Source: a bacterium | Lineage (GTDB): Bacteria; JAMCPX01 | DNA length: 64,000 bases | Direction: 5' to 3' | NCBI GenBank assembly: GCA_021792615.1 | Contig: JAJYUJ010000006.1 | Location: 21,195 to 85,194 of the forward strand | Shown: piece after piece, positions 20,181-54,204 of the stretch | Position numbering within the stretch: position 1 is the stretch's first letter | Layout: every line of letters starts with the position of its first letter | Translations under genes and position numbers: made by a program | Notes under the pieces: model-generated | Told to the model about the DNA's origin: nothing | The model's input: the letters and a program-made list of their open reading frames with translations, nothing else | Databases searched by the model: none

Positions 20181-20279
20181 AAGATGTTCCCTACTATATC
20201 CTGCCTGACCCGGAAAATGCAATAAGGAAGTCTGTTCATTCCTCAGGACAAAGAGTTTGAAACGATGCGAAGGAAAATA

Positions 20280-49002: not shown

Positions 49003-49138
49003 TCCAACCCAGTTCTTTCTTATTCTCTATGCTCAATCTTTGAAAGCCTTGTTTCGTGATCATCAAGCTTAGCGGAGGGTTTTTTATCCCCGATTCATTC
49101 TCTTGCCTTTTCCGCATGCATCATGCTATCTGCAAATC

Positions 49139-50464
49139 ATGCGTTCCAATGCCCTTGTATACGTAATCTCCATCTTAATGGCTCTCTTCATCGGCTGGTC
49201 AATGTTCAACCCCCATTTCAGCGGTTCGATGGAATACCTGCTCATGGTTGTATTCTTCGTCATGCTCGCATGGATTATCCTTGTAATCTTCGTCCCTGAC
49301 CGCAGGGAAAGAAACTATATTTTCTCCATATTCCTATTGGCTCTTTTTCTAAGAATACTCGTCTCTTTTCTTATTCATACCTTACTTCCGCTTGGCTATT
49401 TTGCACCGGATGAGCCGGGTACGATCTTGAACGGAAGAATAACTGCAGAATATTGGAGAGGATCTACCACAATACAGGGCGTAAAAGGGAGTGTATTTGA
49501 TATTGCCGGAATCGTTTTTTATATCTTCGGTTACAACCCAAATATCTTATTTTTACTTGCGAACTTCCTCGGTGCAATGACAGTTCTGAATGCCTATTTT
49601 ATAACAAAGCGCCTGTTCAATGAGCAGTCAGCACGTTATAGTGCATTGGCAGTAACCATTTTGCCATCACTTATACTCTGGTCTTCCATGCCTTTAAAGG
49701 ATGTATACTCACAGTTCTTAATTACATCCATCATGCACATGACTTTAAGAGTCAAAGAACGCTTCAGACTCAATAATGTTGCAATTATTATAGCCTTGAT
49801 AGCATTGATTGGGTTTGTACGGGCATATCTTATGTTCATCGTCTTAGTTGCTATTGCAGGGACATTTATCCCTGTACGCAAAGAAACCTTTTTAAGGAAT
49901 ACAATTATTATTACTATTTTTGCTATGGCATTTGTTGTGTTTTTTTCATCATACTCGTCAAAACAAGCCTCTCTCTTTGGGAATACCCCGGAAACCACAT
50001 TCCAAACACTGCAACAAACCAGACAAGGCTTTTATTCGGGTGGATCTAAAATGCTCGGACATATCAATGTTGCAAGCCCTGTCAATGCTTTATTGTATTT
50101 ACCTCTCCTTTTAGCTGCTTTTTTTCTTGCTCCCTTCCCATGGGACGTAACCGGAAGTATATTGCATAACCTTGCAACTGCAGAAAGCATCGTATGGTAT
50201 TATCTTTTCTATTACGCAATAAAGGCCATTATTCGATCATTTAAAGAAGGCAATTTCGATACATTGCCTGTGCTCGTCATGGTTGGCGTTTTATCTATTG
50301 CTTATGCGCTTGCAATCAGTAATATGGGCGCGGCGTATCGTTTCCGTGGACAGGTTTCTGTCCTGCTGCTGGTCTTCACAGGCTATGGACTTTATTTAAG
50401 GAAGCAGAAACACCTAATAAAACATGCCCTGCCTGATGAACCAAACTCCCCTTCTTCCCCCTGA
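49139..50464 (+). CDS. GT-C-like multipass membrane protein, tandem copy 1
   Basis: A 441-residue protein with about ten membrane helices and no charged soluble domain. After the third helix comes 'LLPLGYFAPDEPGTILNGR', whose acidic 'APDEPG' in the first long loop is like the catalytic loop of GT-C/PMT-type glycosyltransferases that use lipid-linked sugars. 'NAYFITKRLFNEQSARYSALAVTILPSLILWSSMPLKD' is also typical of GT39-like proteins. The ATG at 49139 is preferred: it and its upstream bases (ATGCTATCTG, then ATGCGTTC) are conserved in copy 2. No Shine-Dalgarno is seen. Copy 1 and 2 are alike along their whole length, with the GT-C loop kept in both. Substrate unknown. Confidence 0.82.
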   Translation: MRSNALVYVISILMALFIGWSMFNPHFSGSMEYLLMVVFFVMLAWIILVIFVPDRRERNYIFSIFLLALFLRILVSFLIHTLLPLGYFAPDEPGTILNGRITAEYWRGSTTIQGVKGSVFDIAGIVFYIFGYNPNILFLLANFLGAMTVLNAYFITKRLFNEQSARYSALAVTILPSLILWSSMPLKDVYSQFLITSIMHMTLRVKERFRLNNVAIIIALIALIGFVRAYLMFIVLVAIAGTFIPVRKETFLRNTIIITIFAMAFVVFFSSYSSKQASLFGNTPETTFQTLQQTRQGFYSGGSKMLGHINVASPVNALLYLPLLLAAFFLAPFPWDVTGSILHNLATAESIVWYYLFYYAIKAIIRSFKEGNFDTLPVLVMVGVLSIAYALAISNMGAAYRFRGQVSVLLLVFTGYGLYLRKQKHLIKHALPDEPNSPSSP

Positions 50465-50640
50465 TATGGGGGATTTAAGGGGGTTGAGAGCCCGGACTGA
50501 AGAGTCACCACTGTTCTGTCATTATGATGCTCAGTCAAAGAATCTGCCTTTTCTCTCCGGAATTATAATCTCCGGCGACATTCCTCGCTCCTCCATTCCT
50601 TCTTCTTGCCTTTTCTGCAAGCAACATGCTATCTGAAAAC

Positions 50641-51987
50641 ATGCGTTCGAACCTCGTTATAAACATAATCTTTATTACAAGTGCCATGGTACTTGGATGG
50701 TTTCTGTTCAATCCGAGTTACAGCGATCCTATAGAATACCTTCTTATGCTTGTATTTTTTGTATTGATTGCATGGATTATATTGGTAACTTTTGTCCCTG
50801 ATCAAAAAGAACGGGGCTACCTTATATCTATTTTCTTAATTGCGCTGGCATTAAGGATGCTTGTATCCCTGCTTGTCCATGCACTGCTTCCCCCGGGCTA
50901 TTTTGCACCGGATGAACCCGGCACACTCATGAATGGAAGGATGATTGCTGAATCATGGTCAGGCAATGCCATGCCGTATAACTTTCATGGAGGTATATAT
51001 GCTATTGCCGGGGCTGTGTTTTATATCTTCGGCTATAAACCAAATATCTTATTTTTACTTGCGAACTTCCTCGGTGCATTGACTGTCTTAAATGCCTATT
51101 TTATAACAAAGCGCCTGTTCAATGCGCAGTCGGCACGCTACACCGCTATGGTTGTAACCATATTACCGTCGCTTATTTTATGGTCGTCCATGCCATTAAA
51201 AGACATTTATTCGCAGTTTGCTATTACATCCATCATACACCTGACTCTGAGGATTAAGGAGCACTTCAGAATAAGCAATCTTATGCTTATTTTATTCTTG
51301 ATTGCATTTGTTGGATTCATTAGAGAATATCTTGTGATTATCGTTTTAATGGCTATTGCAGCTACCTTTATTCCTGTACGCAAAGAAACCTTTATCCGGA
51401 ATGCAATTGTTATAGCGGTTTTTGCCTTGTCATTTGCATTGTTCTTTTCATCGTATGAGGCGAAACAGGTGCCCAATCATGGAGAAAAATCAGGAGGTAC
51501 ATTTCAGACACTGCAACAAACCAGACAGGGGTTTTATCAGGGGGGCTCAAAGATACTTGGACACATAAATATATCCAATCCAATCAATGCACTTCTGTAT
51601 TCGCCTTTGCTCTTAGCAGTTTTTTTTCTTGCGCCCTTCCCGTGGCAGATCTCGGGCAGTATATTGCATAACCTCGCAACAGCAGAAAGTCTCGTATGGT
51701 ATTATTTTTTTTATTACGCAATAAAAGCTATTATACGATCATTTAAAGAAGGAAAATTTGACGTGATGCCTGTGCTGGTTATGATCGGAGTATTATCAGT
51801 TGCTTACGCACTTGCAATATCGAATATCGGTGCGGCATACCGTTTCAGGGCACAGGTTTCAGTGCTTTTTTTGGTCTTTACAGGCTATGGACTTTATTTA
51901 AGGAAGCAGGAACATCTAATAAAATATGCCCTGCCTGATGGACCAAAAGTTTCTTCCGCTTATCCGACAACCCCAAATAAGATGTAA
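50641..51987 (+). CDS. GT-C-like multipass membrane protein, tandem copy 2
   Basis: A 448-residue paralogue of copy 1 with the same helix pattern, the same 'LLPPGYFAPDEPGTLMNGR' loop and the same C-terminal 'GAAYRFRAQVSVLFLVFTGYGLYLRKQ'. The ATG at 50641 is used to match copy 1; an ATG 15 bp earlier is in frame. The regions most different between copies are the segment after 'NGR' and the loop before 'TFQTLQQTRQGFY'. The conserved 'TFQTLQQTRQGFYxGGSKxLGHIN' block is a candidate functional loop. The duplication includes about 50 bp upstream of the start codon. Confidence 0.82.
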   Translation: MRSNLVINIIFITSAMVLGWFLFNPSYSDPIEYLLMLVFFVLIAWIILVTFVPDQKERGYLISIFLIALALRMLVSLLVHALLPPGYFAPDEPGTLMNGRMIAESWSGNAMPYNFHGGIYAIAGAVFYIFGYKPNILFLLANFLGALTVLNAYFITKRLFNAQSARYTAMVVTILPSLILWSSMPLKDIYSQFAITSIIHLTLRIKEHFRISNLMLILFLIAFVGFIREYLVIIVLMAIAATFIPVRKETFIRNAIVIAVFALSFALFFSSYEAKQVPNHGEKSGGTFQTLQQTRQGFYQGGSKILGHINISNPINALLYSPLLLAVFFLAPFPWQISGSILHNLATAESLVWYYFFYYAIKAIIRSFKEGKFDVMPVLVMIGVLSVAYALAISNIGAAYRFRAQVSVLFLVFTGYGLYLRKQEHLIKYALPDGPKVSSAYPTTPNKM

Positions 51988-52236
51988 TACCCCAAGTGAA
52001 TATCCAAAATCTACTGAACCATCATCCAATGGTATGTGATCAACACTTGCCCGATGGAATACACAATTATTAACCCGAAAAATGCGTCTGAAAAATAAGG
52101 AAGTTTATGCAATGAGCGATAAGCCCGCGTCAAACAAAGGTATGCTTCGAAAATCCGATAAGGAAACCATACCGGGTAATAGCATATAAACCCCGTTAGA
52201 AATGTTAGAATAATACAGATATTTTAATGAACGGGT

Positions 52237-52279
52237 GTTCGCCGCAATCCACGCTATTTATAGCGTGGTAAAGGCGAAC
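52237..52279. repeat. Two-tier hairpin within the 203-bp sub-element
   Basis: Outer stem GTTCGCC (52237-52243) / GGCGAAC (52273-52279). Inner stem CCACGCTA (52249-52256) / TAGCGTGG (52261-52268) with a TTTA loop. Both stems are perfect. Confidence 0.85.
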
Positions 52280-52306
52280 TATTCGATTGATATATTCCAT
52301 ACCGAC

Positions 52307-52339
52307 GAAGAATTCATGCCGTTTACGGCGTGGTTCTTC
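52307..52339. repeat. Second hairpin within the 203-bp sub-element
   Basis: Outer stem GAAGAA (52307-52312) / TTCTTC (52334-52339). Inner stem CATGCCG (52315-52321) / CGGCGTG (52326-52332) with a TTTA loop and one G-T pair. It has the same TTTA loop as the hairpin at 52237. Confidence 0.8.
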
Positions 52340-52420
52340 AATTTTAAATCTATTGTTGTACAAATTATCGTCTGCTGAGTTTCTAACGGGGTAAACATAC
52401 AGAGGACTAAAAGCTCGTTC

Positions 52421-52634
52421 CTATAAGGAAACTTATAGATATCAGGTGGATCGCGGGATTGAGCGAATAAGGAAACTTCCTTATTGCATTTTTCAGGTTA
52501 AACAATTTTAGATTTCCCCGCGCTACATTTAATGCTTCTTCACTGGGATCTATACAGTACAAAGTTCCAATGCGGGGAGCTACAAACTTTGCCTACCTAA
52601 CCGTTTGAAAATAATGGTGTTTTTGAAATCACCA
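52421..52634. other. Run of stems including a GAAA-tetraloop hairpin (candidate structured RNA)
   Basis: Four exact stems lie in order: CTATAAG-GAAA-CTTATAG (52421-52438, GNRA tetraloop); AATAAGGAA/TTCCTTATT (52466-52485); CCCCGC (52516-52521) / GCGGGG (52572-52577); ATGGTG (52614-52619) / CACCAT (52629-52634). This density in non-coding sequence suggests RNA or single-stranded DNA structure. I cannot match it to a known RNA family. Confidence 0.45.
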
Positions 52635-52695
52635 TCATCGCAAGTCTTTATAGTACTTTGTTCTCTAACGGGGTTTACAGAATACCGCCTCTCTA

Positions 52696-54204
52696 TTACT
52701 TAAAAGAAACCTGATAAGCTAAGCCTATTTTTCGAATATCAAAAGTTTTCTGCAGATCAGGAATAAAATAGTATTGAGCATTATTATCGGCAAGAAACAC
52801 TGTCCTTTTGTCCTTCAACTCTGCTGAAATATAACGAGTTAGAGCACTACCGCCATCCTTGCCCATAAAAACATATTGATCCTCATCCACGATAGTTACA
52901 TCTTTTCTTAAGCCGTAAGCATTCTGATAATACCGTAAAACCTCTTCCGGGGTAAAATCCGAGATTAAAATCGCATTTTCTGGCAATGCTGCAAATATTT
53001 CGTTTGAATATTTCATAGGACCATAATTTCTATTTTTGTTTGGAACAAGGAAATATTCAACATTATTCCTAAAAGGCAGTGTCCGTGCATGAACAACCAT
53101 CATCTTAGGATGACTCAATAAATATGCTGAAACGGTATTATAAAAAGCTATTGGAGTAACAAATAATAGGACCAACAATAAAACAGAGACAGTATTAGTT
53201 TTGGTAAATGAAAAATGTTTATTTAACCATTTTATCCCGTATCCAATAATAATAGAAAAAATCATAAAACTTGGAACCAAAAGGTTAAAAGCACGCTGTA
53301 GCATATAAACGGATGCGAAGAAAACATCTAAAATAAATACTATAGCTAATGAGTAAAAGAATATTTTTTCTGTTTTAAGACTTTCGTATATTCCCATAAC
53401 ACCTATTATGAGACCCCATACAGGGAATTGATAGAACAGGTAAGCCGGATATAAGATTAGTTGTTTAACAAAATGCTGAAATGACATAAAATAGGCTTTT
53501 ATGCCCAAATTTATTTCCAAAATTATACTTTCAAATGGATGAGTATTGAATACATGTGATGCTGCATATATTTTTAACAACGAAAGAGGCAAAACAAAAC
53601 CAAAAAGAATTCCAATAAATATTGCAGCTATTTTTCTATTGTTCAATATGATCTTTTTATCTATTGATAAAAAGAAATATAAATATGCCGGTAAAAATAC
53701 CACTAATAACATGTTTGCAAAAACACTGAGAGCGTACGACAGCGTAAATAAAAACAGATATAGCGGTTTATGATTCTCCTTATATTTGATCATGATGAAA
53801 AGTAATATTGCAAAAAAGAAATAGGTTAAAGAATAACTTTCATTTACGACAGACATAAACCAAAACATTTGTGATACAGCAAGTGAAATTACAGCCGCTA
53901 ATGCGGCAATCTTAGAACCTAATATCTTCTCGCTATCAAGGTAGAATATACCAAGAGTTAAAGACCCCCAAAATGCTGACATGAGATTTTGCTTATAAGC
54001 AATATCCCTAATCGGCAATAGATTAAAAAGTAATCCAAGCAGTGTATGAAGGTTGTGTCCACCAACAAAATCGAAAGTGAATTTTTTATTTATAACATAA
54101 TTTACAAGCTTAGCACTATCTCCCCATGTTATGCCCGGAGATAATGTGTATAAATAAAGGCCAAAGCTGAAAATTGTTACCAATATCCAGAAATATTTAC
54201 GCAT
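52696..54204 (-). CDS. DUF2723-like multipass membrane protein
   Basis: A 502-residue protein. The first helix is followed by 'LYTLSPGITWGDSAKLVNYV', the hallmark of DUF2723/TMEM260-type proteins, whose eukaryotic member is an O-mannosyltransferase. About ten further hydrophobic helices run to residue about 370. A soluble C-terminal domain then follows ('LPENAILISDFTPEEVLRYYQNAYGLRKDVTIVDEDQYVFMGKDGG...RTVFLADNN'). The start at 54204 overlaps the previous stop as TAATG, so the two genes are coupled; the 20-codon extension was not used. It probably glycosylates a protein or glycan outside the membrane; the sugar is unknown. Confidence 0.8.
   Translation of the reverse strand: MRKYFWILVTIFSFGLYLYTLSPGITWGDSAKLVNYVINKKFTFDFVGGHNLHTLLGLLFNLLPIRDIAYKQNLMSAFWGSLTLGIFYLDSEKILGSKIAALAAVISLAVSQMFWFMSVVNESYSLTYFFFAILLFIMIKYKENHKPLYLFLFTLSYALSVFANMLLVVFLPAYLYFFLSIDKKIILNNRKIAAIFIGILFGFVLPLSLLKIYAASHVFNTHPFESIILEINLGIKAYFMSFQHFVKQLILYPAYLFYQFPVWGLIIGVMGIYESLKTEKIFFYSLAIVFILDVFFASVYMLQRAFNLLVPSFMIFSIIIGYGIKWLNKHFSFTKTNTVSVLLLVLLFVTPIAFYNTVSAYLLSHPKMMVVHARTLPFRNNVEYFLVPNKNRNYGPMKYSNEIFAALPENAILISDFTPEEVLRYYQNAYGLRKDVTIVDEDQYVFMGKDGGSALTRYISAELKDKRTVFLADNNAQYYFIPDLQKTFDIRKIGLAYQVSFK

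Follow-up and report, generated by a model that had tools for sequence, protein, structure and literature searches.

Positions 52074–52497 of the window, the whole 64,000-nucleotide stretch of bacterial DNA that was analyzed, very probably consist of three miniature non-autonomous transposons set one inside another: element A carries element B, which carries element C, and all of them lie inside a dead methyltransferase gene. Insertion, target duplication, and empty sites were observed for the nest, and none of the three elements encodes its own enzyme. A, B, and C are new families of already known kinds of element, and the nest is ordinary but unusually clean. A preliminary description of this DNA had stated that no named family fits, which holds for the individual repeats but not for their kinds. 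The features are as follows.

51981–52073, minus strand: 3′ piece of a SAM-dependent methyltransferase-like remnant, including the left TTAA; 91% identical to L237 of genome G007
52070–52073: left target-site duplication of A, TTAA; single TTAA in the G007 empty site
52074–52497, plus strand: element A, an IS1380-type MITE, 219 bp excluding the insert; terminal inverted repeat CCCGAAAAATGC
52187–52190: left target-site duplication of B, TAAA; single in A copies without B
52191–52391, plus strand: element B, a MITE, 91 bp without its insert (201 bp with C); terminal inverted repeat CCCCGTTAGAAA
52228–52231: target tetranucleotide TGAA, 5′ of C; YGAA precedes nearly every C copy
52232–52341, plus strand: element C, 110 bp, two hairpins; lacks a terminal inverted repeat and shows no target duplication beyond an ambiguous AA; boundaries uncertain by up to 2 bp
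52237–52279, plus strand: left hairpin of C, with GTTCGCC/GGCGAAC as outer stem and a TTTA loop on the inner stem (DNA fold)
52307–52339, plus strand: right hairpin of C, GAAGAA...TTCTTC, TTTA loop (DNA fold)
52392–52395: right target-site duplication of B, TAAA, repeating the left one
52498–52501: right target-site duplication of A, the second TTAA of the pair
52498–52593, minus strand: 5′ piece of the methyltransferase-like remnant; 86% identical to G007 L237
52662–52673, minus strand: lone B-type terminus TCTCTAACGGGG with TTTA as its flank and without a partner

Architecture of the nest

A search of the host assembly (2.54 Mb, 77 contigs) with 52070–52700 gave 75 matches, which resolved into three nested families. 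Query positions 1–432 correspond to A. Because positions 323–432 abut 1–122 in many copies, the middle must be an insert (B), and because 160–272 were also found without the remainder, there is an insert inside the insert (C). The lengths agree exactly (424 = 219 + 201 + 4; 201 = 91 + 110). The DNA around the copies was read, and copy counts are lower bounds, for A also because several contigs end within A copies. The A terminus occurs 185 times in the genome versus 19 for the reversed control, and the B terminus 97 times versus 3; the repeats of this stretch are far above chance.

All the inverted repeats reported in the preliminary description are present in the sequence, but the element boundaries differ from those drawn there. 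The motif TAAACCCCGTTAGA at 52187–52200 has an exact inverted match at 52664–52677 and a 13-bp inverted match (ACCCCGTTAGAAA) at 52380–52392. The 490-bp unit that had been proposed between exact repeats does not exist as such: sequence in its distal part is single copy, and its right arm is the solitary downstream B-type end. A pair at 52070 and 52501, regarded as older and imperfect (52070–52085 and 52486–52501 are 94% complementary), is really the outer boundary of the whole nest. Two hairpins with a TTTA loop had been assigned to a 203-bp sub-unit; the hairpins exist, but they belong to the separate third element C. The copy search that had been recommended for the host and its relatives revealed many sharp-ended copies, with ends at the boundaries of A, B, and C. 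Thus the suggestion of nested non-autonomous mobile elements is borne out by copies, sharp ends, duplications, and empty sites, but there are three levels instead of two.

The disrupted gene and its surroundings

At the orthologous site, the related genome G007 (L237) has an intact ORF of 289 aa on the minus strand, which is methyltransferase-like as judged by reading of its motifs. Since this ORF is intact there, 51981–52073 and 52498–52593 are the remnants of a gene. The G007 stretch reads ACAATTATTAAACAATTT, with one TTAA, and is the exact pre-insertion site of A. Element A inserted into the methyltransferase gene and duplicated a 4-bp TTAA-like target. The stretch had been called gene-free, and there is indeed no intact ORF of at least 60 aa within 51988–52695; the two flanking pieces are nevertheless coding remnants.

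Downstream of the nest, only about 15 bp of 52502–52720 (52664–52678) are repeated elsewhere, the rest being single copy, and the distal repeat is therefore a solitary B-type end. A run of stems with a GAAA tetraloop had been pointed out in this part, and it found no support as a repeat family or as an RNA (single copy; no Rfam match). Positions 49103–51987 of the window hold two tandem genes for membrane proteins of 453 aa, which go back to an old duplication and share about 75% DNA identity.

Element A and its link to IS1380

The terminal inverted repeats of element A are 12 bp long, and its target duplication is 4 bp. The element was present at no fewer than 39 loci in its own genome (rows of the genome search), 19 with B and 20 without. 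Among the complete copies, most of those lacking B measure 218–219 bp and most of those with B 314–317 bp; the copy described here, with B and C, measures 424 bp. Identical 4-bp flanks were found on both sides in 23 of the 30 complete copies, and seven had no matching flanks. TTAA was the commonest flank, and TTTA, TCAA, TGAA, TTCA, ATAA, and TAAC also occurred. The same tetranucleotide other than TTAA stood on both sides of seven copies, where 0.5 were expected, and none of 10,000 shuffles reached seven. Element A is thus a MITE: short and multicopy, with terminal inverted repeats, a target duplication, and an empty site, and with no transposase gene. All nine genomes sampled from the host's family (the host's and those of eight relatives) contain it, and a search of 108 other genomes found no copy. 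A solitary right-end fragment of A (38 bp, 84% identical) lies at 20209–20245 of the window. Another element of 488 bp with A-type ends and TTAA flanks has a long unrelated interior (L144 412–899; G000:C41:32311–32798), and part of this interior is found again at C12, where it contains an inserted C element.

The relative G006 contains a 1,620-bp element (L217) with the identical 12-bp terminal inverted repeats and TTAA flanks. Its ORF of 388 aa matches IS1380 (NF033539, 167.5 bits, E = 3.7e-49), just below the curated cut-off of 180 bits, and matches PF13701 at 81 bits, above the cut-off of 34.7. From reading of the sequence, the ORF appears to be frameshifted near its start. A second, partial homologue in G007 is 79% identical to this ORF over residues 228–388, and the right end beside it is exactly GCATTTTTCGGG-TTAA. 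Element A therefore shares its termini with an IS1380-family element, and an insertion sequence of the L217 type is the likely source of its transposase. Most likely, as the shared ends suggest, A would have been moved in trans by an IS1380-family DDE transposase.

No intact IS1380 transposase was found in the host's own genome, which has just a PF13701 fragment of 60 residues containing a stop and no match to PF01609. For this reason, the A family may no longer be mobile in this host, and the enzyme used in its last transposition in the host lineage may have been lost or may lie in an assembly gap. A plasmid collection queried with the insertion sequence and a phage collection queried with the nest gave no match. 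In the open-access literature, we found neither nested IS1380 MITEs nor a published IS1380-derived MITE.

The IS1380 family (e.g., IS1247, ISPme1, ISEcp1) is the transposase family of the L217 element and has a short terminal inverted repeat and a short target duplication, as in A. IS1247 is 1,672 bp long, compared with 1,620 bp for the L217 element (PMC3281130). Element A differs from the family in being only 219 bp long and lacking a transposase gene, and its 4-bp duplication differs from the 5 bp reported for IS1247. The piggyBac transposons of eukaryotes duplicate a TTAA target, as does A, and their ends begin with CCC, a likeness to the ends found here. In A, however, TTAA is preferred and not required, and its candidate transposase belongs to IS1380, which is a distant relative only, its transposases having been described as prokaryotic enzymes distantly related to those of piggyBac (PMC10140906).

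Element B and the spread of the composite

Element B sits at one fixed site inside A in 19 of the 39 copies. Copies without it read GCATATAAACATAC (GCATA-TAAA-CATAC, with one TAAA), whereas those with B read GCATA-TAAA-[CCCC...GGGG]-TAAA or TGAA-CATAC. B-type elements with other interiors also occur on their own, bordered by 4-bp duplications (TAAA, TTTA, TCAA, and CAAA, for example), and some have unmatched flanks. With its terminal inverted repeats, 4-bp duplication, empty site, and many copies, B is also a MITE, which inserted at an internal TAAA site of A. It was probably moved by an enzyme similar to that of A, as end style and duplication are alike. No autonomous partner with B ends was found among the 19 PF01609 matches in nine genomes (ends at up to two mismatches), an absence that is weak evidence. 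One pair of B ends about 2.9 kb apart (C23) was considered as such a partner and rejected, having no transposase in between.

The complete nest is present at two genomic sites, here and at C74:4775–5210 (95% identical, flanked by TGAA at one end and by TTAA at the opposite end); it has therefore either moved whole or been duplicated through conversion. The composite of A and B also occurs in G003, and in G008 and G004 this site of A is occupied by a B that is partial or diverged. In the host genome, the composite has spread by transposing whole, to which sequence exchange between copies has probably contributed. On the tree of A, the presence of B requires at least eight changes, and a single clade of B-containing copies was rejected (p-AU 0.0006). 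The divergence of B (0.064) is lower than that of A (about 0.097) and is not tied to it (correlation −0.29 with the left part of A and 0.20 with the right part); the left and right parts of A themselves show a correlation of only 0.34 over all copies. These three observations suggest sequence exchange between A copies. The main rival explanation is that B has been lost repeatedly by precise, piggyBac-like excision. The many changes on the tree and the rejected single clade would fit this as well, the sites without B are perfect with one TAAA, and IS1380 transposases are the described distant relatives of piggyBac (PMC10140906). Against it, the divergence of B is lower than that of A and does not track it, the poor correlation between the two parts of A suggests mosaic exchange, and the TGAA variant that stands beside many B copies occurs in none of the aligned copies without B. 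We therefore consider excision unlikely and retain exchange between copies.

Some A copies (L097, L113, L116, and L179) have a 23-bp replacement (GGGGTACCCACCCG...GGGAAGGGTCGC), which is found in copies both with and without B and is a further sign of module exchange. At L179 1747–2054 (WY2.bin9), the middle of an A copy is replaced by another palindromic repeat (TCATTGCGAG...GAAGCAATCC...CTCGCAATGAC). A pair of A-type ends 1,151 bp apart with TTAA on both sides (L152 485–1635; G000:C76:12484–13634) was considered as an autonomous insertion sequence and rejected, because it encloses a 334-aa NAD-dependent epimerase-like ORF and no transposase; it is possibly a gene capture between MITE ends or a chance meeting of two A ends. 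More speculatively, the A family might be an exchanging population in which modules (B, B with C, the 23-bp variant, the epimerase gene) are swapped while the termini are kept. We regard this broader reading as rather improbable; under it, the family would be comparable to the gene-capturing MULEs of plants.

Element C

Element B is 91 bp long without C (L003) and 201 bp with it, and C is therefore 110 bp. About 25 copies with 70–98% identity and sharp ends were found in the genome. The ends are of the form TGAA-CGGGTGTTCGCCGC ... TTCTTCAA, and nearly all copies are preceded by YGAA and end in TTCTTCAA. Two empty sites are available: B without C reads AATGAATTTT, and the L144 element is the empty version of the C12 site. 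Neither has a duplication beyond an ambiguous AA.

As single-stranded DNA, the two hairpins fold at −24.2 kcal/mol (z = −4.2). In the alignment of copies, the outer stem of the left hairpin is paired in 95.5% of cells, the right hairpin has five pairs changed on both sides, and the stems are 92.8% paired on 16 copies versus 31–50% when slid, the relatedness of the copies limiting the weight of the shuffle control. Folding and covariation had been proposed as a check in the preliminary description, and the hairpins of C fold well as DNA and covary. A large structured non-coding RNA with the inverted repeats as its stems, which had been put forward as the other possible reading, would profit from these stable and covarying hairpins. 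However, no Rfam match was obtained at E values up to 1, and each of the three elements can be found by itself at numerous unrelated loci, bordered by target duplications or by a conserved insertion target. The whole unit is also absent from the site in G007, and covariation in C would be expected equally of a hairpin read as DNA by a transposase. We consider an RNA extremely improbable.

C has subterminal hairpins at both ends and no terminal inverted repeat, as in ends-only elements of IS200/IS605. It would probably be moved in single-stranded form by a tyrosine (Y1/HUH) transposase, either of IS200/IS605 or of REP type, which would read the two hairpins and insert the element 3′ of YGAA. 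A hairpin-recognizing transposase, as had been suggested for the entire stretch, would fit only this innermost 110-bp element; A and B end in terminal inverted repeats of the ordinary kind and have 4-bp duplications. The mechanism is one that we infer because no transposase with C-type ends was found: the Y1 genes in the nine genomes have other end hairpins, and C is for this reason only likened to the IS200/IS605 ends-only elements. These elements (PATEs) share with C the two subterminal hairpins and the lack of terminal inverted repeats; they have a conserved short 5′ target and no clear target duplication, which C may share, as its two empty sites show nothing beyond the ambiguous AA and YGAA precedes nearly all copies. 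A difference is that no autonomous copy with the ends of C was found. REPINs and REP-associated tyrosine transposases offer a second comparison, C being a dispersed pair of hairpins of about 110 bp in a host genome that has a REP-associated transposase-like gene (L143). The two hairpins of C do not, however, represent a single REP repeated in inverted orientation, and C-type repeats do not flank L143. This gene (L143 888–1931; G000:C22) encodes a Y1 transposase of REP-associated type with a DnaA-like domain fused to it at the C terminus, and it is bounded by a perfect 20-bp inverted repeat GGGGTCAGCCCTTGACATTG. Both L143 and an IS200-like gene of the same genome (L142) were considered as parents of C and rejected, as their ends differ, and no C-type repeats lie near L143.

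The absence of a Y1 transposase with matching ends in nine genomes would also fit a different route, neither IS200/IS605 nor REP type, for example a DDE enzyme with a 2-bp AA duplication, since both empty sites are ambiguous by AA. We hold this to be a real possibility, if the less probable one. It would leave the typical pattern of IS200/IS605 ends to be explained (two subterminal hairpins and a tetranucleotide conserved upstream, with TTGAA/TTCAA as the only terminal inverted repeat), and the host genome does have Y1 transposases of the IS200 and REP-associated types.

Significance

What might have been taken for a new RNA is replaced by a series of ordered insertions, A in a gene, B in A, and C in B. 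Outside mobile-element biology, this nest is ordinary. For the MITE family A, it provides a plausible transposase, IS1380, with a TTAA-like target. The family-wide set of A copies would allow the exchange of internal segments between MITEs to be measured, and if the A family is an exchanging population, its terminal inverted repeats would be a chassis for cargo capture in bacteria.
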